NCBI GenBank assembly: GCA_017303675.1
Contig: JAFLBX010000001.1
Coordinates: 1,933,970 to 1,997,969, forward strand
Direction: 5' to 3'
Length of the DNA stretch: 64,000 bases
Origin: Ignavibacteria bacterium
GTDB lineage: Bacteria; Bacteroidota; Ignavibacteria; Tepidaquicellales; OLB5
The notes beneath the pieces were generated by a model. The model saw only the letters and a list, made by a program, of their open reading frames with translations, was not told the DNA's origin and searched no databases. The position numbers and the translations under genes are program-made. Shown here in pieces: positions 365 to 21,003 of this stretch. Within the stretch, counting starts at the first letter, position 1, and every line of letters begins with the position of its first letter.

Positions 365-430
365 TGATATATATCATATTGAAAATTGAGCAACATCATA
401 GGAAACACATGCATTTAAATGCTATTTTTG
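365..430 (+). promoter_or_regulatory. Two CRP/FNR-like boxes and a -7 element upstream of the ferredoxin gene
   Basis: Box 1 is TGAT-ATAT-ATCA (365-376), inside an 18-bp perfect palindrome at 362-379. Box 2 is TGAG-CAAC-ATCA (387-398), one base off the TGAT-N4-ATCA pattern. Box centres are 22 bp apart. TATTTTTG (423-430) matches the TAnnTTTG -7 element, 30.5 bp beyond the centre of box 2, which places box 2 near -42 and box 1 near -64. CRP/FNR-family activators commonly bind at such positions. That the two genes at 555-1428 are the target is inferred from position. Confidence 0.55.
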
Positions 431-554: not shown

Positions 555-899
555 ATGTCAGTAATAATAACAGATGATTGTATAAACTGCAGCGCTTGTG
601 AAACCGAGTGCCCTGAACATGCAATTATGCCAAGGCTGAATAACCATTCTGAATTGTTCGGTAAAAGACCCAAATACCTGAATAATTTATATATGGCTAA
701 ATATTACCAGTCTTTTGATCATTATTATATTATTCCCGGAAAGTGCAGCGAGTGCAGTAATATTTACAGAGAGCCCAGGTGCAATTCTGTTTGTCCGGTT
801 TCCTGCTGTATCACCCGGTCAGAACGGGAATTGCAGGAACACAGCGGAATAAAAATTAAAATTAATTCCTTAACCATATCAAAAATCAGTCTGAACTGA
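555..899 (+). CDS. 2[4Fe-4S] ferredoxin
   Basis: A 114-residue soluble protein with two cysteine clusters. The first, CINCSACETECP near residues 10-21, is a classic C-x2-C-x2-C-x3-CP. The second, beginning CSECSN near residue 63, has C-x2-C-x8-C-x3-CP spacing, the longer loop seen in the YfhL/Nif-type branch of bacterial ferredoxins. The insert between the clusters is long and rich in Tyr and Asn. It probably carries low-potential electrons in the cytoplasm; the partner is unknown. The next gene starts 1 base after its stop codon, so the two are almost certainly cotranscribed. Paired CRP/FNR-like boxes upstream suggest oxygen- or nitrosative-stress control. Confidence 0.85.
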   Translation: MSVIITDDCINCSACETECPEHAIMPRLNNHSELFGKRPKYLNNLYMAKYYQSFDHYYIIPGKCSECSNIYREPRCNSVCPVSCCITRSERELQEHSGIKIKINSLTISKISLN

Positions 900-2516: not shown

Positions 2517-2966
2517 TATTTACTTTCCTGCAATATCGACTCTAAATTTCACCTTAGAAGGGGGACGAACTCTTTTGGTTTTTGTATATCCGCTTGTCAT
2601 ACCGGCGAAAGCGGGTATCTAAAATAATATTTTCAATAGTGCTTTTTACAGCGGATACGGAAGCAATATAGTCGATATAATAAAAAAAAAGACGACCTTC
2701 ACGATCGTTTTTTATAAATACAAATTATAATCCATATAAACACAAAGCGGAGTCCCCTCCGCCTTGTTTGAATGGCTCAATGCCACCTTCATCCATCCTT
2801 ACCGAGGAGCAGCCCTCAATAAGTACCGTTACAAAGATAATATTTGCAGTTATCCCTAAAAATGACGGTCATCAAGCTAAAATATGATTTTTATCGTTTT
2901 ACACCTTTTCACCGCTCTTGTGTTGATTTAAACGTATTGGTATATTAGTGTAAATATTATGATAAA
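2517..2966. other. Intergenic region with REP-like hairpins and one CRP/FNR-like box
   Basis: No gene is visible in these 450 bases. The region holds a REP-like hairpin at 2595-2620 (stem ATACCGGC/GCGGGTAT, loop GAAA, one mismatch) related to the element at 24456-24480, a GCGGAG/CTCCGC hairpin at 2747-2762, and an imperfect hairpin around 2688-2715. Near its end, TGAT-TTTT-ATCG (2885-2896) is one base off the CRP/FNR-like pattern. A weak -7-like TATATTAG begins 50.5 bp beyond its centre, at 2941, ahead of the DUF2306 gene. Confidence 0.5.
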
Positions 2967-6020: not shown

Positions 6021-6452
6021 TTACTGTATCATAATTTTTTCTTCACTGAAATAATCCTTACCGCTCATAGCCCAGTTTACCTGAACTTTCCATAAACCTT
6101 TAGGCAGTTTTTCAGTGCTCAATACCTGCTTATTATCAGCAGCCGGCTCAACATTCAATTTAAAATCTTCTTTAGCGTCAGAAGGTTTATAAAATGATAT
6201 CTCGCCGGTTAATTTATCATTTGTTTGCGGATATGTTATAACTAAAACAGTCCCGTTATATTCAAACTTTACTTTTTCTGCCAGTGAGTTTGTATTGTTT
6301 ATCTTATCTATCTGTTCCTGGTATTTCAGCTCTTTTTCATAATAATTTGATGTTACCAGGTCAATATTTTTTGTCATGGATTTGTAAACAAGTATTCCTA
6401 TGCCAATCACAAAAACCACAAATACTGCAATTATTCCTTTTCCCCAGTTCAT
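6021..6452 (-). CDS. ccoH: FixH/CcoH family cbb3 oxidase assembly protein
   Basis: A 143-residue protein with one N-terminal membrane anchor (about residues 5-25, WGKGIIAVFVVFVIGIGILVY) followed by VTSNYYEKELKYQEQIDK, the typical FixH entry into the periplasmic domain, and an Ig-like beta domain. FixH/CcoH binds the maturing cbb3 oxidase and is needed for its stability and assembly. It lies 16 bases downstream of ccoG in the usual G-H order. Confidence 0.85.
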   Translation of the reverse strand: MNWGKGIIAVFVVFVIGIGILVYKSMTKNIDLVTSNYYEKELKYQEQIDKINNTNSLAEKVKFEYNGTVLVITYPQTNDKLTGEISFYKPSDAKEDFKLNVEPAADNKQVLSTEKLPKGLWKVQVNWAMSGKDYFSEEKIMIQ

Positions 6453-6468
6453 ATTATTATTTATCCTT

Positions 6469-7890
6469 TCAATTCTGTTTTTGCGGAGCGGGTCCTAAAA
6501 AGTTAATTTTTACCAGCGCGAATCTTTCATTTTCTCTGTAAAGCCCTATTTCAAGAGGTATGTTCATGGTTGTCAGCTTTTCTTTCGGTAACAGAACAAG
6601 AAACTTCGTTTCTGATACGTCATTGGAGCCTACTTTTATATCATTACCTATTACTTTAAGCTCGCCTTCACGGTTTTCAAGCTTTAGGGTTACGGGTACT
6701 TCATTAAAGGTTTTATTCGTAAGCTTCATGGTATAAAGATTACTTATCTTGTTATCAGGCTGTTCCTGGAATATCATTCCCGGCGCTCTTAATATTGTTA
6801 CATCTATAGGCTTCCTTGTGGATACCAGGTATGTTAGCACTCCCAATAAAATAACAAGAACAGCGGAGTAAGCAATAACCCTTGCAGTTACTTTGAATTT
6901 TGTCTTGTTCCTTATATTGTTCTCCGAAGCAAATCTAATCAAGCCTCTGGGTTTGCCGATCTTATCCATAATACTGTCACATGAATCGATACATGCAGTA
7001 CAGTTAACACATTCAAGCTGAGTGCCGTTCCTTATATCTATTGCCGTAGGGCAAACTGCCATACATTCTTTGCAGTCTATACAGTCGCCGTTTGTTCTTT
7101 CTTCACCTTTATGTATCTTACCCCTGGGTTCACCCCTTACATAGTCATATGCAATTACGGTAGTGTTTTTATCAAGCAAAACCCCCTGCAGCCTGCCGTA
7201 TGGGCAAACATAAATGCAGGCATATTCTCTGAAATAAACGAATATAAAATAAAATACTCCTGAAAATATCAGCATAGCTATAAAACCGCCAAGGTGCATA
7301 GAAACCGGTTCCGTAATGATCTTAACAAGGTCATCAAGCCCGATTATCCATGCCAGGAATGTATTAGCTATAAGTACAGAAAGCGCAAAAAATATTCCCC
7401 ACTTTGTTACTTTCTTAAATATCTTGGAAGCAGACCACGGAGCAGCATTCAGGTTCTTCTGTTTGATATAATCGCCTTCAAAGAGGAATTCGATTTTCCT
7501 GAAGACCATTTCCAGGAAAACCGTCTGGGGACAAGCCCAGCCGCAAAATACCCTTCCGAAAACCGCTGTGAATAATATTATTGATACAACAATTGCAATA
7601 AACCCCAGGGCTAATATAAAAAAATCATGGGTGCCAAAAGCCTGCCCGAAAAGAATAAATTTACGGTCTACAATATTAAGCATCATGAACGGATGGCCAT
7701 CAATTCTTATCAAAGGCATACCGAACAAAAATGCCAGCAGAATTATACTGAATATGGTGCGTGCATTATAAAATCTGCCCTTTGGCTTTTTGGGGTAAAT
7801 GTTCTTTCGTTTACCGTCGTCTGTAATAATTCCTAGATGATCCCTGAAAGAGTCTGTATCTGTTATAGTATTTGAACTTATCTTATGCAT
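6469..7890 (-). CDS. ccoG: CcoG/FixG cbb3 oxidase accessory ferredoxin
   Basis: A 473-residue membrane protein with a cytoplasmic N-terminal tail, several membrane helices (FGRVFCGWACPQTVFLEMVFRKIE and YVCPYGRLQGVLLDK mark the family), two [4Fe-4S] motifs near residues 260-300 (CIDCKECMAVCP and CVNCTACIDSCD), a last membrane helix, and a C-terminal Ig-like domain from about residue 360. CcoG is the cupric reductase that supplies Cu(I) for cbb3 assembly. Full length compared with the family. It starts 75 bases after ccoP, across a strong hairpin. Confidence 0.95.
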   Translation of the reverse strand: MHKISSNTITDTDSFRDHLGIITDDGKRKNIYPKKPKGRFYNARTIFSIILLAFLFGMPLIRIDGHPFMMLNIVDRKFILFGQAFGTHDFFILALGFIAIVVSIILFTAVFGRVFCGWACPQTVFLEMVFRKIEFLFEGDYIKQKNLNAAPWSASKIFKKVTKWGIFFALSVLIANTFLAWIIGLDDLVKIITEPVSMHLGGFIAMLIFSGVFYFIFVYFREYACIYVCPYGRLQGVLLDKNTTVIAYDYVRGEPRGKIHKGEERTNGDCIDCKECMAVCPTAIDIRNGTQLECVNCTACIDSCDSIMDKIGKPRGLIRFASENNIRNKTKFKVTARVIAYSAVLVILLGVLTYLVSTRKPIDVTILRAPGMIFQEQPDNKISNLYTMKLTNKTFNEVPVTLKLENREGELKVIGNDIKVGSNDVSETKFLVLLPKEKLTTMNIPLEIGLYRENERFALVKINFLGPAPQKQN

Positions 7891-7965: not shown

Positions 7966-8910
7966 TTACTTGATCGTATCTTTTTTAATTTTGCTGGTGT
8001 CTGTTTTCATCTTTACAGAATCAGTTTTAACCTTACTGCTGTCTGTGACCTTCTTTGAGTCATTACCTGTGGTTTTAACTGAATCCACCCATATATTGCC
8101 TTCGGGCGGCTTGCCGTTTGCCGGTTTTGTACCCTGGAGGCTCAATACATAACTGCTTACCTGCTGGATCTGTTTTGGTGTTAACAATGTTTTCCATGCT
8201 ATCATACCTTTTGCCGGTACTCCGTTGGATACGGTTGTGAATACATTTTTTATACCGCCGCCGTGTATCCAGTTCTGGTCAGTCAGGTTCGGACCCACTG
8301 TTCCGCCGCCATCGGGTCCGTGGCATGGAGTGCAGTTAACTGTCCATATCTGTTTGCCTTTTTCAAGCTCAGCAGCATCAGTAACTAAAGTCACATTATC
8401 AGCATTAATAAATGCGCCTGTCCTGATAAGCTCTTCACGTTTATCATTGGCTATCTTAACTTCGTTCAAATATTCATCAACCATTACATTACCTGAGCCT
8501 AATACATGGTAATCAATCATATATACAATAGCGATCACAATTGTACCATAGAATAACAGGTTGAACCATGGCGGAACGGTATTGTTAAGCTCTTTGATAC
8601 CGTCAAAATCATGGTCAAGCATGATATCTTTTTCTTTTTCTATTGGCACGCCGCGGTTAAGAACGGCTGATATTTTTGCAAGGAATGAATATCTTTCTTT
8701 TCTTCTTTCAGCGGAGTAATTGTATTTTGGGGCTGAAAGAATGAAGAACAGAATGAACAGGAAGGCAACAAGCAAAAATACCATTGCGCCGGCCAGCTTT
8801 GAATATTCATTCATTCCGTCATTGTGTCCTGTAGTTGCCTGTGCAAAAATTCCCGCATTAATAAACAGCATTGCGCAAATAGCGGATATTTTAATAAGGA
8901 AATTATTCAT
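7966..8910 (-). CDS. ccoP: cbb3 oxidase subunit III, mono-haem CcoP
   Basis: A 314-residue membrane-anchored cytochrome c. The N-terminus is hydrophobic (residues 5-23), then a helix at 40-60, the charged FixP segment with VPIEKEKDIMLDHDFDGIKELNN, and a second anchor starting PPWFNLLFYGTIVI. The periplasmic part has one haem motif, CTPCH (about residues 195-199), and a downstream Met in GMIAW as likely axial ligand. Proteobacterial CcoP has two haem c sites, so this is the shorter mono-haem form. The last 40 residues are a Lys/Thr/Ser/Asp-rich tail of near-repeats (KVKTDSV, KMKTDTS, KIKKDT). Start overlaps ccoQ by 4 bases. Confidence 0.9.
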   Translation of the reverse strand: MNNFLIKISAICAMLFINAGIFAQATTGHNDGMNEYSKLAGAMVFLLVAFLFILFFILSAPKYNYSAERRKERYSFLAKISAVLNRGVPIEKEKDIMLDHDFDGIKELNNTVPPWFNLLFYGTIVIAIVYMIDYHVLGSGNVMVDEYLNEVKIANDKREELIRTGAFINADNVTLVTDAAELEKGKQIWTVNCTPCHGPDGGGTVGPNLTDQNWIHGGGIKNVFTTVSNGVPAKGMIAWKTLLTPKQIQQVSSYVLSLQGTKPANGKPPEGNIWVDSVKTTGNDSKKVTDSSKVKTDSVKMKTDTSKIKKDTIK

Positions 8911-9114: not shown

Positions 9115-11250
9115 TTATTTAACCTCCTTCATATCGGCTGTATTGTTGCCTTTGATATCAGTTCCTAATCTTTGCAGGTAAGCAATTAAAGCGACTATTT
9201 CTTTTTCAGGCGTAACGGGAGCCCCGTTCTTCTGAAGGTCTGCAGTAATTTCCTGTGCCTGCTTCATCAGCTCATCGTTGGCAATTTTTTCATATCCGGC
9301 AGGGTAGGGCACACCGATTGATCTTAATGCGTTTATCTTATCTTCTGTTGTTGAAATATCAAGATCGTTATCAAGCAGCCAGTCATACACAGGCATTAAT
9401 GAACCCGGTGATATCTGCTGCGGGTTCTGCATATGCAGGTAATGCCATATGTTTGGATATTTCTTTCCTTCCCTGTGGAGGTCGGGTCCTGTTCGTTTGG
9501 AGCCCCATAAGAACGGATGGTCATAAACATACTCGCCTGCTTTTGAATATTCGCCGTATCTTTCCGTTTCACTGCGGAATGGCCTAATCATCTGTGAATG
9601 GCAGTTATTGCAGCCTTCTCTGATATACAGATCACGACCCTGCAGCTCAAGCGGAGTGTAAGGCTTTACGCTTGATATGGTAGGAATGTTTGATTTTACA
9701 AGGAAAGTCGGTATTATTTCAATTAAACCGCCAATCAATACAAGAACAGTTGCTAATAATGCGAACTGAATGGGCTTTCTTTCAAGCCACCTGTGTTTGG
9801 TTTCACCGGGCTCAGCAGTGTTCAGCACTCTTGCCGGAGCTTCTGCAGGTTCTTCTGCGAATAATGTTCCTGTTTTAATTGTTTTAACCAGGTTGTATAC
9901 GCCAATAATAACTCCAACAAAATACATTGTTCCGCCGACTGAACGGATAGCGTATAATGGTATTAAGTTTGTAACAGTTTCAAGGAAGTTAGGATACTGA
10001 AGAATGCCTTCCGGTGTGAACTGTTTCCACATTAATGACTGTGTGATACCTGACCAGTACATTGGTACTGCATAAAATACTATTCCAAGGGTTCCTATCC
10101 AGAAATGAATATTGGCAAGTTTTTTTGAGTACAGGTCAGTTTTATAGATCCTTGGTATGAGCCAGTATAAAATACCGAATGTTAAAAATCCGTTCCAGCC
10201 AAGTGCGCCAACGTGAACGTGTGCTACGATCCAGTCAGTATAATGAGCTATAGCGTTAACATTCTTAAGTGAAAGCATCGGTCCTTCAAATGTTGCCATA
10301 CCGTAAGCTGTAACAGCAACCACCATGAATTTTAATATTGGGTCTTCACGTACTTTATCCCATGCACCTCTAAGTGTTAACAGACCGTTTATCATACCGC
10401 CCCATGAAGGTGCTATTAGCATAACTGAAAACACTGTGCCGAGTGATTGTGCCCAGTCAGGCAGGGCTGTATATAATAAATGATGCGGACCGGCCCAGAT
10501 ATAAATAAATATCAAAGACCAGAAATGAACTATGGAAAGCTTGTATGAATAAACCGGCCTTCCTGCTGCCTTTGGCAGGTAGTAATACATCAAGCCTAAG
10601 AACGGTGTTGTTAAAAAGAACGCAACTGCGTTATGTCCGTACCACCACTGTACTAAAGCGTCTTGGACTCCTGCATAAACCGAATAGCTTTTCAAAAAGT
10701 TTACAGGAATTTCTATAGAATTAACTATGTGCAGCACTGCGACGGTGACAATGGTCGCTATGTAGAACCAGATAGCAACATACATATGCTTCTCACGGCG
10801 TTTGGCAATTGTCCCGAACATGTTGATGGCAAAAACCACCCACACGAGTGCGATCAGGATATCAATTGGCCATTCCAGTTCAGCATATTCCTTGCTTGTG
10901 GTAATACCTAAAGGAAGTGTTAGTGCTGCACATAAAATTATCGATTGCCAGCCCCAGAAATGTATCTTGCTCAGCAGGTCGCTGAACATTCTGGCTTTGG
11001 TTATTCTTTGCATTGAATAATAAACGCCCATGAATATCGCGTTTCCTACGAAGGCGAATATCACTGCGTTTGTGTGTAACGGTCTTAAGCGGCTGAATGT
11101 TGTATATGGCAGGCCGAAGTTCAAGACCGGCAGATAGATCTGAAATGCTATCAGTAATCCTACAAGCATGCCAACTACGCCCCATACCATTGTGGCGAGC
11201 GCAAAATTGCGGACTATCCGATTATCATAACTGAACTTTTCCATTTCCAT
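9115..11250 (-). CDS. ccoNO: Fused cbb3 oxidase subunits I and II (CcoNO)
   Basis: A 711-residue fusion. Residues 1 to about 460 are CcoN, with twelve membrane helices: LRPLHTNAVIF (haem b ligand), GHNAVAFFLTTPF (CuB His), YSYKLSIVHFW (the Tyr cross-linked to CuB His in this class), WAGPHHLLYTALPDW (two CuB His) and DWIVAHVHVGALGWNG (haem ligands). After a linker, residues about 490-711 are CcoO: a membrane anchor, CNNCHSQMIRPF (haem c) and the axial Met in GSLMPVYDW. All key ligands are present. It reduces oxygen with high affinity and pumps protons. ATGGAAATGG carries two possible starts; an AGGAG ribosome-binding site favours the first. Confidence 0.95.
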   Translation of the reverse strand: MEMEKFSYDNRIVRNFALATMVWGVVGMLVGLLIAFQIYLPVLNFGLPYTTFSRLRPLHTNAVIFAFVGNAIFMGVYYSMQRITKARMFSDLLSKIHFWGWQSIILCAALTLPLGITTSKEYAELEWPIDILIALVWVVFAINMFGTIAKRREKHMYVAIWFYIATIVTVAVLHIVNSIEIPVNFLKSYSVYAGVQDALVQWWYGHNAVAFFLTTPFLGLMYYYLPKAAGRPVYSYKLSIVHFWSLIFIYIWAGPHHLLYTALPDWAQSLGTVFSVMLIAPSWGGMINGLLTLRGAWDKVREDPILKFMVVAVTAYGMATFEGPMLSLKNVNAIAHYTDWIVAHVHVGALGWNGFLTFGILYWLIPRIYKTDLYSKKLANIHFWIGTLGIVFYAVPMYWSGITQSLMWKQFTPEGILQYPNFLETVTNLIPLYAIRSVGGTMYFVGVIIGVYNLVKTIKTGTLFAEEPAEAPARVLNTAEPGETKHRWLERKPIQFALLATVLVLIGGLIEIIPTFLVKSNIPTISSVKPYTPLELQGRDLYIREGCNNCHSQMIRPFRSETERYGEYSKAGEYVYDHPFLWGSKRTGPDLHREGKKYPNIWHYLHMQNPQQISPGSLMPVYDWLLDNDLDISTTEDKINALRSIGVPYPAGYEKIANDELMKQAQEITADLQKNGAPVTPEKEIVALIAYLQRLGTDIKGNNTADMKEVK

Positions 11251-11347: not shown

Positions 11348-12550
11348 TTATATAATGCCGATTTCTTTCATGCACTTTACTATTCTGTCATATGCAAGCT
11401 TAATATCGCCGTCAAGACCGATAGAAAACCTTACCAGCCCTTCCGAAAGCCCCATTTCTTTCTGCTCATCTTCCGGTATTTCTGATGATGTGCTGTGACC
11501 GGGTGAGCTGAAAAGGGTTTTAAAGTATCCAAGGCTTACTGCCAGATATCCAACTTTTTCCTGCTGCATTTTTTCCAGCAAAGCTGATGCATTCTCATAG
11601 GTTCCTACATCAACAGCTATCATTCCGCTGTAACCAAATCCTTCATTTCTTATCTGTTCAATCAGATTAAAATGCCTGCTGTTTTTTAAACCGGGGTAAT
11701 AGACCTTCAGTCCCAGCTTTTCAAATTCTTCAGCAAGAAATAAAGCATTCTCACCGTGTTTTTTCATCCTGATATGCAGTGTATGAAGGTTTTTTAAAAT
11801 ACTTGCAGCTCGCAGGCTATCAAGAACCGGACCAAGCAGCATAGTTGCGCCTGAATTCACGTCAGTTAAGCTGTTTATAAACTCAGCACTGGAACAAATA
11901 CATCCTGCAACACAGTCGCTTGACCCGTTTATATATTTGGTCATACTGTGTATCACAATATCCGCCCCAAGGTGCAGGGGAGATATTACCATCGGGCTGA
12001 AAGTGTTATCAACTACCAGCTTTATATTGTGTTCTTTGGCTATTTTGCTGATTGCAGGTATATCTGTTATTTCAAGTAAAGGATTGCTGATTGATTCAGC
12101 ATATATCATTTTGGTCTTTTCGGTAACAGCAAGCTCAACCATTTCAGGTTTTTGCATATCTACAAACTTTACCGTAATGCCAAGTTTCGGCAAAAAATTC
12201 TTAAAGAACGCATATGTACCTCCGTAAATTGTTCTTTCAGATACAATTTCATCGCCGGAGCTGCATATCTGCAGCACTGTTGAGCTTATTGCAGCCATTC
12301 CTGAAGATGTTACCTGCGCAGCTTCGGCGTCTTCCAGCCTGGCAAGCGCATTTGAAAGGAATTTATTTATCGGGTTCCAGTGCCTTGAATAAAGGAAGCA
12401 GCCTTCCATTTCATGCTGGAAAGATTCTGCCATAGTTTTGGGGCTTAAGAACGTGAAAGTTGATGAATCAGTTATGCTCGGGTTCACATCGCCGAACTCT
12501 CCGAATACAAGGTAATCATGTATGCTGGTGCTTGGGTCGAATTTTTTCAT
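11348..12550 (-). CDS. Cys/Met-metabolism PLP enzyme (methionine gamma-lyase-like) in the cco operon
   Basis: A 400-residue fold-type I PLP enzyme of the cystathionine gamma-synthase/methionine gamma-lyase family. Visible: YSRHWNP (near residue 54; usually YSRxxNPT), SSGMAAIS (phosphate cup), ISNPLLEITDI, VVDNTFSP, and the PLP lysine in SMTKYINGSSD near residue 210. Substrate cannot be told from sequence: gamma-elimination of methionine or homocysteine, or cystathionine cleavage, are all possible. Its ATG overlaps the ccoS stop by one base (TAATG), so it is translationally coupled into the oxidase operon, which is unusual. Ninety-seven bases separate it from ccoNO. Confidence 0.85.
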   Translation of the reverse strand: MKKFDPSTSIHDYLVFGEFGDVNPSITDSSTFTFLSPKTMAESFQHEMEGCFLYSRHWNPINKFLSNALARLEDAEAAQVTSSGMAAISSTVLQICSSGDEIVSERTIYGGTYAFFKNFLPKLGITVKFVDMQKPEMVELAVTEKTKMIYAESISNPLLEITDIPAISKIAKEHNIKLVVDNTFSPMVISPLHLGADIVIHSMTKYINGSSDCVAGCICSSAEFINSLTDVNSGATMLLGPVLDSLRAASILKNLHTLHIRMKKHGENALFLAEEFEKLGLKVYYPGLKNSRHFNLIEQIRNEGFGYSGMIAVDVGTYENASALLEKMQQEKVGYLAVSLGYFKTLFSSPGHSTSSEIPEDEQKEMGLSEGLVRFSIGLDGDIKLAYDRIVKCMKEIGII

Positions 12551-12708
12551 TATTTGTTTACACCATCCGTTTCATCATCAAATAAAATACGTACTGAAGG
12601 AGTATACCTGTCTTCATATTGTCCTGATCTGACAGCCCATAAGAAAGCGATCAAAAATCCCCCGGCTACCAATACACTGAAAAATACAAGTATTACTATT
12701 ACACTCAT
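12550..12708 (-). CDS. ccoS: CcoS, small cbb3 oxidase assembly protein
   Basis: A 52-residue protein found by translating the gap between ccoI and the PLP enzyme: MSVIVILVFFSVLVAGGF, then LIAFLWAVRSGQYEDRYTPS. One membrane helix is followed by the family signature W-x2-[RK]-x-GQ(Y/F)-[ED]D-x2-[TS]P. CcoS is needed for cofactor insertion into cbb3 oxidase, though its chemistry is unknown. Both ends overlap neighbours by one base in TAATG: its start with the ccoI stop, its stop with the PLP enzyme start. This makes a tightly coupled ccoI-ccoS-lyase unit. Confidence 0.93.
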   Translation of the reverse strand: MSVIVILVFFSVLVAGGFLIAFLWAVRSGQYEDRYTPSVRILFDDETDGVNK

Positions 12709-15152
12709 TATAAACCTCTCTTTTTAGCCATAAGGTTAGTTGAAAGTACTGTGAATAAAACTACTGTTATTGAGCTTGCCGGCATTAATATTGCAGCAAG
12801 CAGCGGTGAAATTTCTGACTGAAAAGCCAGAGTAACCCCCGCAATGTTATATATTACAGAAATTATAAAGCTTATAATTATTATCTTTTTTGTGGTTTTA
12901 GTGAAGCCTATGATTTTGTTCAGCCTGCTGAACTCACCTGCATCAAGAATAGCATCACATGCCGGCGAAAAATTCGTAATATCTTCCGAGATGGCAATGC
13001 CAACATCACTTTGCTTAAGGGCGCCGGCGTCATTTAAACCGTCGCCAATCATAAGAACCCTGTGACCTGAGTTTTGAAGATCTTTTATATACTCAAGCTT
13101 ATCTGCAGGCGTTTGATTGAACCTTATTCTGCCTTCCTGTCCGAAATATTTCTGAAGATTTTCTTTCTCTCCTTCGTTATCTCCTGAAAGCACAGCAAGC
13201 CTGAATTTATCTTTCAGCGAAGTAATAATGTTTTCAAGCCCGGTTCTGTATATATTATTTATAGAGAAAAATCCTTTGATCGAACCGTTTATTGAAAGGA
13301 ATATCCTTGAATCAAGTTTTGAAGCAGTATTATCATTGTTAAGCAGTATTTTATTGTTATCTGCTGCAAATAAAGCGCTGCCCAGCTTAACATTATTGCC
13401 TTCTATAACCGCTTCAATTCCTTTGCCTGAAAGCTCTTTAAATGTGCTGCAATAGGGAATATCATCAGCCTGAATTGCTGCATATATCCTGCTGCTTAAT
13501 GGATGTGTTGAGTTCCTTACAAGAGATTTTACCAGTTTTTGTTCCTGTGCAGTCAGTACATTGCCGTTAAAAGTTATATCCGCATCACCAGTTTGAGTAA
13601 TTGTACCTGTTTTATCGAAAACAATAGTATCAATTTTTGAAATGCGCTCAACCACAGAAGCATTCTTTGCGTAAAATTTATTTCTTCCAAGTATCCTTAT
13701 TGCATTGCCAAGTGCGAACGGATTTGTAAGTGCAATCCCGCATGGACAGGCTATTATTAAAACAGCTGTAAATGCATTAATGGCTGTTCTTAAGCTCACA
13801 GGGTACCAGTACAAAAATGCAGCTGCTGCAACCAGTAAAATTATAACTGTAAAGAATTTGCCAACTATATTAACCAGTGAATTAAACTTATCCTCATCTT
13901 TTTTAACAAATGTATCTTTGTTCCAAAGCTGTGTAAGGTAGCTTTGCGAAACTGTCCTTATAACCTCAAGCTCAATAGCGCTTCCAATCTGCCTGCCGCC
14001 TGCATAAACAATTTCTCCGGCTACTTTTGGAACCGGAATTGATTCACCTGTTACAAAGCTGTAATCCAGGTTTGCATTGCCGTTGAACATAATCGCATCG
14101 GCGGGAATTAGCTCATTATTCCTGATGAGTATCCTGTCACCCTGTTTAAGTGCTGTTACAGGAATGCTTGTTTCTTTGCCTGATCTTCTAACTGTTACAG
14201 ATACGGGAAAGTATGATTTGTAGTTTCTTTCAAAGTTAAGGGCATCATATGTTTTAGCCTGGAATATTTTTCCCAGCAAAAGGAAAAATATAAGGCCTGT
14301 CATTGAGTCAATAAACCCAACACCGGTATTTGTGATAATTTCAAAGGAGCTTCTGATGAATAAAACAACAAGTCCCAGAACTATCGGGAAATCAATATTT
14401 ATACTTCGTTGTTTTATTCCGCTCCATGCTGATTTGAAGTAGTCGCTCGCAGAATAAAAAAGCACAGGTGCGCCTAATACCAGGTTCAGAAGCCCGAAAA
14501 ACTGCCTGAATGTATGCTCGAGAGAACCTACAGGAGCCAGGTATTCAGGAAAGCTTAGTAACATTATGTTGCCGAAACAGAATCCGGCTACGCCAATTTT
14601 GTAATATAAACTCTTATTGGAACGGTATTTTATTTTATTTTCGATATCATCAAGGCTTATCTGAGGTTCGTATCCAATTGATACAAGTAGCTCAACTATC
14701 TGTCTGAGTGATACTTCGCTGTTTTTGAATTTTATTCTTACTGTTTTCTGGACAAAATTCACTTCAGAATGAAGAATCCCGCTGTTAAGCTTGTATAGCT
14801 TTTCAAGAAGCCAAATACAGGAAGAGCAGTGAACCTGGGGAATAGTAAATGTGCAGAGAGAAATATTTCCTTCTGTAAAATTGGTAAGCTGTTTAACTAC
14901 GCCGGGGTCATCAAGATATGAGTACCTGGAGCCTGCCGCACTATCAAGCTTCTTTTGGGATATTCCGGGTGTTTTATCAAGGTCATAGTATTTGCACAGG
15001 TTGTTTTCATTCAGTATTTCATATACTGTTTTGCAACCCGTACAGCAAAAGATCTTGTCACCGCTTCGAATATCCAGACCCTTATTGCAAATATCACCGC
15101 AGTGATAGCAGAGAGTCCCTTCCTTTAGGTTTACTACTTCTGAAATCTGCAT
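12708..15152 (-). CDS. ccoI: CcoI/FixI copper-exporting P-type ATPase
   Basis: An 814-residue P1B-type ATPase. The N-terminus has a zinc-ribbon-like Cys cluster (CYHC at 15-18, CCTGC at 36-40) typical of CcoI in this assemblage, then a metal-binding domain with VHCSSCIWLLEKL (Cys109, Cys112). Next come membrane helices, the actuator TGES, the metal-site helix with ACPCGIALTNPF, the phosphorylation motif DKTGT, THPLSS (the HP motif) and the hinge MIGDGLNDAGAL. It exports copper to the periplasm for cbb3 assembly. First gene of the operon, preceded by two CRP/FNR-like boxes. Confidence 0.95.
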   Translation of the reverse strand: MQISEVVNLKEGTLCYHCGDICNKGLDIRSGDKIFCCTGCKTVYEILNENNLCKYYDLDKTPGISQKKLDSAAGSRYSYLDDPGVVKQLTNFTEGNISLCTFTIPQVHCSSCIWLLEKLYKLNSGILHSEVNFVQKTVRIKFKNSEVSLRQIVELLVSIGYEPQISLDDIENKIKYRSNKSLYYKIGVAGFCFGNIMLLSFPEYLAPVGSLEHTFRQFFGLLNLVLGAPVLFYSASDYFKSAWSGIKQRSINIDFPIVLGLVVLFIRSSFEIITNTGVGFIDSMTGLIFFLLLGKIFQAKTYDALNFERNYKSYFPVSVTVRRSGKETSIPVTALKQGDRILIRNNELIPADAIMFNGNANLDYSFVTGESIPVPKVAGEIVYAGGRQIGSAIELEVIRTVSQSYLTQLWNKDTFVKKDEDKFNSLVNIVGKFFTVIILLVAAAAFLYWYPVSLRTAINAFTAVLIIACPCGIALTNPFALGNAIRILGRNKFYAKNASVVERISKIDTIVFDKTGTITQTGDADITFNGNVLTAQEQKLVKSLVRNSTHPLSSRIYAAIQADDIPYCSTFKELSGKGIEAVIEGNNVKLGSALFAADNNKILLNNDNTASKLDSRIFLSINGSIKGFFSINNIYRTGLENIITSLKDKFRLAVLSGDNEGEKENLQKYFGQEGRIRFNQTPADKLEYIKDLQNSGHRVLMIGDGLNDAGALKQSDVGIAISEDITNFSPACDAILDAGEFSRLNKIIGFTKTTKKIIIISFIISVIYNIAGVTLAFQSEISPLLAAILMPASSITVVLFTVLSTNLMAKKRGL

Positions 15153-15161
15153 ATTCTGTTA

Positions 15162-15226
15162 CAAAATTAGGCTGAATAGTCATATATTAATATGATTTGT
15201 GTCAACGGAAAGTATGATTTTTATCA
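15162..15226 (-). promoter_or_regulatory. cco operon promoter with two CRP/FNR-like boxes
   Basis: Read on the minus strand: a perfect TGAT-AAAA-ATCA (15215-15226), then TGAC-ACAA-ATCA (15193-15204, one base off; extended it reads TTGACACAAATCA), then a -7 element TAATTTTG (15162-15169) ten bases before the ccoI ATG. Box centres are 22 bp apart and the proximal centre is 29.5 bp from the -7, the same layout as upstream of the ferredoxin gene. Low-oxygen activation of fix/cco operons by FNR-type regulators is well established in proteobacteria. Confidence 0.65.
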
Positions 15227-20960: not shown

Positions 20961-21003
20961 TGATTTTTATCATAAAAGGTAACTACTATTATTAATATAT
21001 TTG
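20961..21003 (+). promoter_or_regulatory. CRP/FNR-like box and -7 element just upstream of the TolB-like gene
   Basis: TGAT-TTTT-ATCA (20961-20972; flanks extend the palindrome to TTATGATTTTTATCATAA) and TATATTTG (20996-21003). Centre-to--7 distance is 29.5 bp, so the box would sit near -41.5, the usual class II activator position, and no TTTG -33 is needed. The ATG begins only 6 bases after the -7 element, so the transcript may be leaderless or nearly so. Confidence 0.6.

Follow-up and report, generated by a model that had tools for sequence, protein, structure and literature searches.

Tandem FNR-like boxes spaced 22 bp apart upstream of a cbb3 oxidase cluster, a ferredoxin operon and a candidate small RNA in an Ignavibacteria bacterium

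Introduction

The phylum Bacteroidota has a promoter consensus of its own, and how gene expression responds to oxygen in it is poorly described. The window analysed here, the whole stretch of 64,000 nucleotides from an Ignavibacteria genome, raises the question at a single locus: what is the role of two palindromic TGAT-N4-ATCA boxes that stand side by side ahead of a cbb3 oxidase gene cluster, and is their exact spacing a property of one promoter or of many? The first-pass annotation regarded FNR-type regulation as little described in this lineage, and the literature agrees with it. One study was found, in which Ignavibacteria CRP/FNR proteins are predicted to be MalR- or Flp-like carbon sensors (PMC8510549). 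This assignment contrasts with the FNR reading given below without contradicting it, as the MAGs of that study are not known to be of the same species.

The FNR tandems known so far have other spacings. A search of the open-access literature, with subscription papers mostly outside its scope, returned no account of FNR boxes paired at 22 bp in Bacteroidota. A fixed tandem layout provides a precise search pattern for the low-oxygen regulons of uncultured members of the phylum.

The Promoter of the Oxidase Cluster

On the minus strand, the promoter consists of a perfect distal box, TGATAAAAATCA (15215..15226), followed after 10 bp by a proximal box with one mismatch, TGACACAAATCA (15193..15204), and after a further 23 bp by a -7 element of the TAnnTTTG type, TAATTTTG (15162..15169). 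Direct reading of the sequence returns exactly the values first reported for it: a box-box spacing of 22 bp between a perfect and a one-mismatch box, and 29.5 bp from the centre of the proximal box to the T of TAATTTTG.

In Flavobacterium psychrophilum, TAnnTTTG occupies -12 to -5, and the cbb3 genes are induced by oxygen limitation (PMC9723704). The start-site estimates given here adopt this placement of the element, which would put the boxes at about -41.5 and -63.5. Transcription of ccoI is then expected to begin near 15157, about 5 nt 5′ of the ATG at 15152. The distance from the pair to the ATG is identical in the tandem-bearing genus members read, and, taken with the short predicted leader, this constancy indicates that the ccoI mRNA may be nearly leaderless (window 15152-15169). 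A conserved half-site, ATATGAC, lies about 10 bp past the proximal box (window 15170-15192; genus ccoI loci L070-L081) and forms GTCATATTTAAATATGAC with that box in several relatives. Elsewhere in the window, a perfect lone box, ATGATTTTTATCAT, is located at 20961-20972, 36 bp ahead of ORF 21009, without a partner.

The description of this region as a cbb3 promoter is correct as to the operon and needs amending as to its first gene. This is ccoI/fixI (12708..15152), which codes for a copper-transporting ATPase of cbb3 maturation (Pfam E1-E2_ATPase, ATPase-cat_bd and HMA), with ccoNO located further downstream. The order within the cluster, with coordinates on the minus strand, is ccoI, a ccoS-like small ORF of 52 codons that overlaps the ccoI stop and is named from position and length only (12550..12708), a PLP enzyme gene, the ccoNO fusion of cbb3 subunits I and II (9115..11250; COX1 and FixO), ccoP (7966..8910; FixP_N and Cytochrome_CBB3), ccoG/fixG (6469..7890; Fer4_18 and FixG_C) and ccoH/fixH (6021..6452; FixH).

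Recurrence of the Spacing within the Genome

The same layout precedes a ferredoxin operon on the plus strand. Boxes TGATATATATCA and TGAGCAACATCA (365..398), 22 bp apart, are followed at an offset of 24 past the proximal box by the -7 element TATTTTTG (423..430). The gene downstream (555..899, plus strand) codes for a 4Fe-4S ferredoxin-like protein, as judged by Pfam Fer4 models. The values first given for this promoter, 22 bp between the boxes and 30.5 bp from the proximal box to TATTTTTG, proved right in the direct sequence read, and the pair is kept across the genus at offset 24. A third pair, CGATAAAAATCA and TGATGACCGTCA (2863..2896, minus strand, 22 bp), is missing from the first-pass annotation; a perfect TATCTTTG (2832..2839, minus strand) lies exactly 23 bp off.

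Within a limit of two mismatches, the window contains three 22-bp pairs against 0.06 expected, and none of 100 shuffles reaches three. Throughout the 3.65-Mb genome, limits of one, two and three mismatches give 10, 24 and 63 pairs at 22 bp, compared with 0, 4 and 52 at the control spacing of 23 bp; a reversed-pattern control is probably biased low through base order. All ten pairs with at most one mismatch are intergenic, as are 21 of the 24 best. When TGA-N6-TCA pairs are sorted by spacing, seven fall at 22 bp and 11 over 30 other spacings (Poisson P about 1e-7). The phase of the -7 element is similarly constrained, with 11 perfect TAnnTTTG sequences at offsets 23-24 past the pairs and five at all other offsets. 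The early judgement that such agreement in spacing and phase is unlikely by chance is therefore upheld, and the genome-wide scan suggested alongside it reveals pairs that are enriched and almost all intergenic rather than equally frequent in coding or shuffled sequence.

The box-box-TAnnTTTG layout is common to at least 14 promoters of the genome, with the consensus nGATNNNNATCAT...TGANNNNNATCAT, and the strong columns of their alignment are mainly those of the boxes and the -7 element. Several 22-bp pairs are not followed by a TAnnTTTG where one would be expected. Around half of the genome's best pairs lie within 150 kb (G000:C1:1.798-1.949 Mb). Clusters of matches also occur in Chitinophaga and other Bacteroidota genomes (L181-L185).

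Conservation in Relatives and Distribution in the Phylum

Promoters of ccoI orthologues in the same genus, in the family and in further genera of the order retain the boxes, the 22-bp spacing and a perfect TAnnTTTG while the spacers diverge. The count covers 28 loci with upstream DNA; G008 and G035, which have no usable upstream sequence, are left out, and the G031 locus is scored as tandem from a locus-wide scan. The 23 loci from relatives that carry the regulator described below comprise 18 tandem pairs, four single boxes and one locus with neither, so that a tandem or single box precedes ccoI in 22 of them. No box is found near ccoI in the five relatives without the regulator, all of which belong to one genus and may represent a single evolutionary event. 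At the third pair, 11 of 11 loci with upstream DNA preserve both the 22-bp register and, at offset 23, a perfect TAnnTTTG, with up to five mismatches in the boxes of one locus (L200).

A search of 296 sampled Bacteroidota genomes for box-box-TAnnTTTG with up to three mismatches returned 230 matches at 22 bp, distributed over 63 genomes, and 70 at 23 bp, distributed over 48. With a regulator homologue defined by E <= 1e-35, genomes that have one average 2.26 matches at 22 bp versus 0.30 in those that do not; the corresponding values at 23 bp are 0.42 versus 0.18. Six genomes with at least three matches have no regulator at E <= 1e-35. Clean 23-bp pairs are present in some of the Bacteroidota genomes, and 22 bp is therefore a preferred spacing rather than an exclusive one. 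The genomes examined outside Bacteroidota yielded zero or one match each. One 22-bp pair is seen in each of two Neomarinimicrobiota loci (L170, L177), upstream of a protein that begins MRLSMTAEYAIRAMV and looks like an Rrf2-family regulator.

Among the named genomes, at least 11 matches each are found in Chitinophaga japonensis, C. silvisoli and [Flexibacter] sp. ATCC 35208, for example. The C. japonensis genes with the layout upstream include ccoI and ccoNO as well as those for an Hsp20, a BON-domain and a Usp protein. Genes for cbb3 oxidases, Hsp20 and Usp proteins are typical targets of FNR/FixK. In two Bacteroidetes MAGs (L142, L143) and a Bacteroidia MAG (L141), the layout stands ahead of a gene for a protein of 714-720 aa that looks CcoN-like at its N-terminus. 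Another recurrent element, TGATATATATCAAGAGTTTTTCCTAnnACATATCAATGG and its relatives, with a spacing of 22-23 bp, occurs in several f35 and f33 Bacteroidota genomes. One contig in the collection starts with AGATGTGTATAAGAGACAG (L204:1-19), presumably sequencing-adapter sequence, which makes this locus end an artefact.

The Candidate Regulator

A regulator of the CRP/FNR family had been sought as a check on the boxes, and the genome contains four such genes (HTH_Crp_2), one of them with FNR-like cysteines. This best candidate (G000:C1:1931381-1932085) is located about 2 kb ahead of the window start. It has both the CRP-fold sensor and the Crp-type helix-turn-helix (Pfam cNMP_binding, 2e-22; HTH_Crp_2, 1.5e-14), and its best NCBIfam model is Fnr, at a score far under the cut-off (98 vs 228 bits). 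A set of four cysteines is present, three near the N-terminus (C10 and C13 as CxxC, and C22) and one central (C112), the last of which aligns with the cysteine of the FNR ‘vCeIP’ motif. From this arrangement, it appears that the protein probably carries an oxygen-labile Fe-S cluster. C10, C13 and C112 are conserved in 75, 75 and 76 of 83 aligned rows, which are partly redundant. The third ligand varies across the family, with C22 in 50 and C38 in 59 of the 83 rows, and C38 may substitute for C22 in the wider family.

The recognition helix reads E-T-T-I-R in the candidate and E-T-I-S-R in FNR, so that Glu and Arg are kept and Ser is replaced by Ile; the E-x-x-S-R form is not present in this protein. 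The replacement may explain the changed outer base of the boxes, which are of the type ATGAT/ATCAT rather than TTGAT. Homologues of the regulator also occur in open frames of about 350-370 codons (e.g., G104, G117, G156, G352), a length that suggests an extra N-terminal domain. A second family member, FNR2, adjoins FNR and has a weak tandem pair of its own with TAATTTTG at offset 24, on account of which the regulatory network may be layered.

Proposed Mode of Action

On this evidence, the boxes are most likely adjacent operators for homodimers of the FNR-type regulator encoded about 2 kb away, which would activate transcription at low oxygen, with the dimers probably binding cooperatively. The proximal dimer would occupy the class II position, about -41.5 from the TAnnTTTG promoter. 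The second would bind 22 bp upstream, at about -63.5; as this is a distance of two helical turns, the dimers would be neighbours on the same face of the DNA. Under low oxygen, they would recruit RNA polymerase, probably in a cooperative manner, and transcription would be switched on for the cbb3 cluster and the ferredoxin operon, for further redox and stress genes and for the small RNA. Points that weigh against this reading are the three further CRP/FNR genes, the departure of the recognition helix from that of canonical FNR, the variable third cysteine ligand, the pairs that have no TAnnTTTG in place, the restriction of the regulator-free relatives to one genus and the six genomes that have matches but no regulator. 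This arrangement raises the mechanistic question of where the C-terminal domain of the polymerase alpha subunit is placed when -63.5 is occupied.

In the E. coli model of a class II FNR-dependent promoter, FNR is bound at -41.5. The promoters described here resemble that model in the 29.5 bp that separate the proximal box from the start of the -7/-10 element, from which a position of about -41.5 is predicted, in the palindromic TGAT-N4-ATCA core and in the cbb3, Usp and Hsp20 targets. They differ from it in the TAnnTTTG core, in an outer base A rather than T (ATGAT-N4-ATCAT) and in that a further box, placed 22 bp upstream, regularly forms part of the promoter. Rhizobial FixK/FnrN anaerobox promoters likewise control cbb3 and small heat-shock genes and include two boxes at one sHSP gene, but those boxes are 56 bp apart, at -87.5 and -143.5 from the start codon (PMC11784457).

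It is unlikely, though worth weighing, that the boxes serve another CRP/FNR paralogue or a mixed pair (FNR with FNR2, or with the regulator beside a RIC/ScdA-like gene), in which case the signal might be NO or redox state. There are four family members to choose from, two of the other paralogues carry helices of the E-x-x-S-R type, and FNR2 has both its position beside FNR and its own weak pair to recommend it. Across the phylum, however, the tandem matches track the Cys-bearing FNR-like gene, and a relative with a more distant family member (G023) has no box at ccoI. The helix of FNR2, SKSYMKK, also lacks the Glu and Arg expected for the reading of TGAT.

It is quite improbable that the distal box functions as a brake or tuning site instead of a site of activation. 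The precedent is found in E. coli, where tandem FNR sites occur at yfiD (-41.5 and -93.5) and in engineered melR derivatives, and where a promoter activated by FNR can be repressed by a further FNR dimer bound upstream (PMC11264516). Some relatives, moreover, have only one box at ccoI. The promoters here share with these tandems a pair of FNR-type sites, one of them at a predicted -41.5, yet the spacing is 22 bp rather than about 52 bp and is the same across many promoters and genomes (PMC11264516). The second site is predicted at about -63.5 and not near -93.5, whereas the repressing positions in E. coli are -85 to -95, and one exact spacing in the cbb3, ferredoxin and small-RNA promoters would not be expected of a brake. 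The natural yfiD tandem has its sites further apart, and the upstream one reduces expression; cooperative activation is therefore what we infer here, with the brake kept as a rival. As for chance in AT-rich intergenic DNA, A+T makes up 62% of the window, and weak pairs with three mismatches are frequent at any spacing, but the 22- versus 23-bp counts, the spacing histogram, the shuffles, the TAnnTTTG offsets and the conservation at the ccoI and small-RNA promoters refute this explanation and leave it virtually no probability.

Activation by two adjacent FNR homodimers may have a wider reach. It is put forward tentatively, as somewhat less than an even prospect, that in a class of promoters spread over much of the Bacteroidota, a pair of abutting FNR dimers, at -41.5 and -63.5, works as a single cooperative switch that responds to oxygen and acts on the holoenzyme reading TAnnTTTG, and that a lineage-specific FNR-controlled small RNA is one of its outputs in this Ignavibacteria family.

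The Candidate Small RNA

The layout also exposes a candidate small RNA that is absent from family libraries. From the -7 element at 2832..2839, an RNA start is expected near 2827, and the minus-strand region 2735..2827, about 90 nt, is a candidate for a conserved, structured small RNA under FNR control, on the basis of promoter layout, folding and conservation. The pair at 2863 was also considered as the promoter of the plus-strand DUF2306 gene; this was rejected, as no TAnnTTTG is found there, in contrast to the minus strand with its perfect copy at offset 23. A protein-coding reading of the region was likewise set aside, since the overlapping frames do not exceed 39 codons, and the conserved stretch folds and shows pair-preserving terminator changes.

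The predicted RNA begins with a 10-bp 5′ hairpin, followed by an invariant GAUGGAUGAA linker, a second hairpin and a terminator-like hairpin (about 2767-2742), with fold z-scores of -4.67 and -5.44. No Rfam family other than a tRNA was matched in the window at gathering score, FnrS was absent from the weak Rfam matches, and a scan of a virus collection for the core of the small RNA gave no match. Target prediction on the available start regions yielded no convincing candidate. The candidate resembles FnrS of the Enterobacteriaceae and its functional equivalent in Neisseria in that a short RNA follows an FNR-type promoter, and it resembles FnrS by folding and pair counts in its 5′ stem-loop, unpaired stretch and intrinsic terminator-like hairpin (PMC3032703). 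It differs in its tandem rather than single box and in its confinement to one Ignavibacteria family, and the Rfam search detected no sequence kinship with enteric FnrS.

Searches with a covariance model place a single copy in 11 of the 13 genomes of the genus and in two other genera of that family, the only one matched; a weak match in G042 is doubtful, as the core is missing from it. Across the genus and its sister genus, about 55 nt hardly vary, and the terminator-like hairpin that follows is variable, with changes among relatives that preserve pairing. This genome has a weak U-run, and the relatives L138 and L189 have a strong one.
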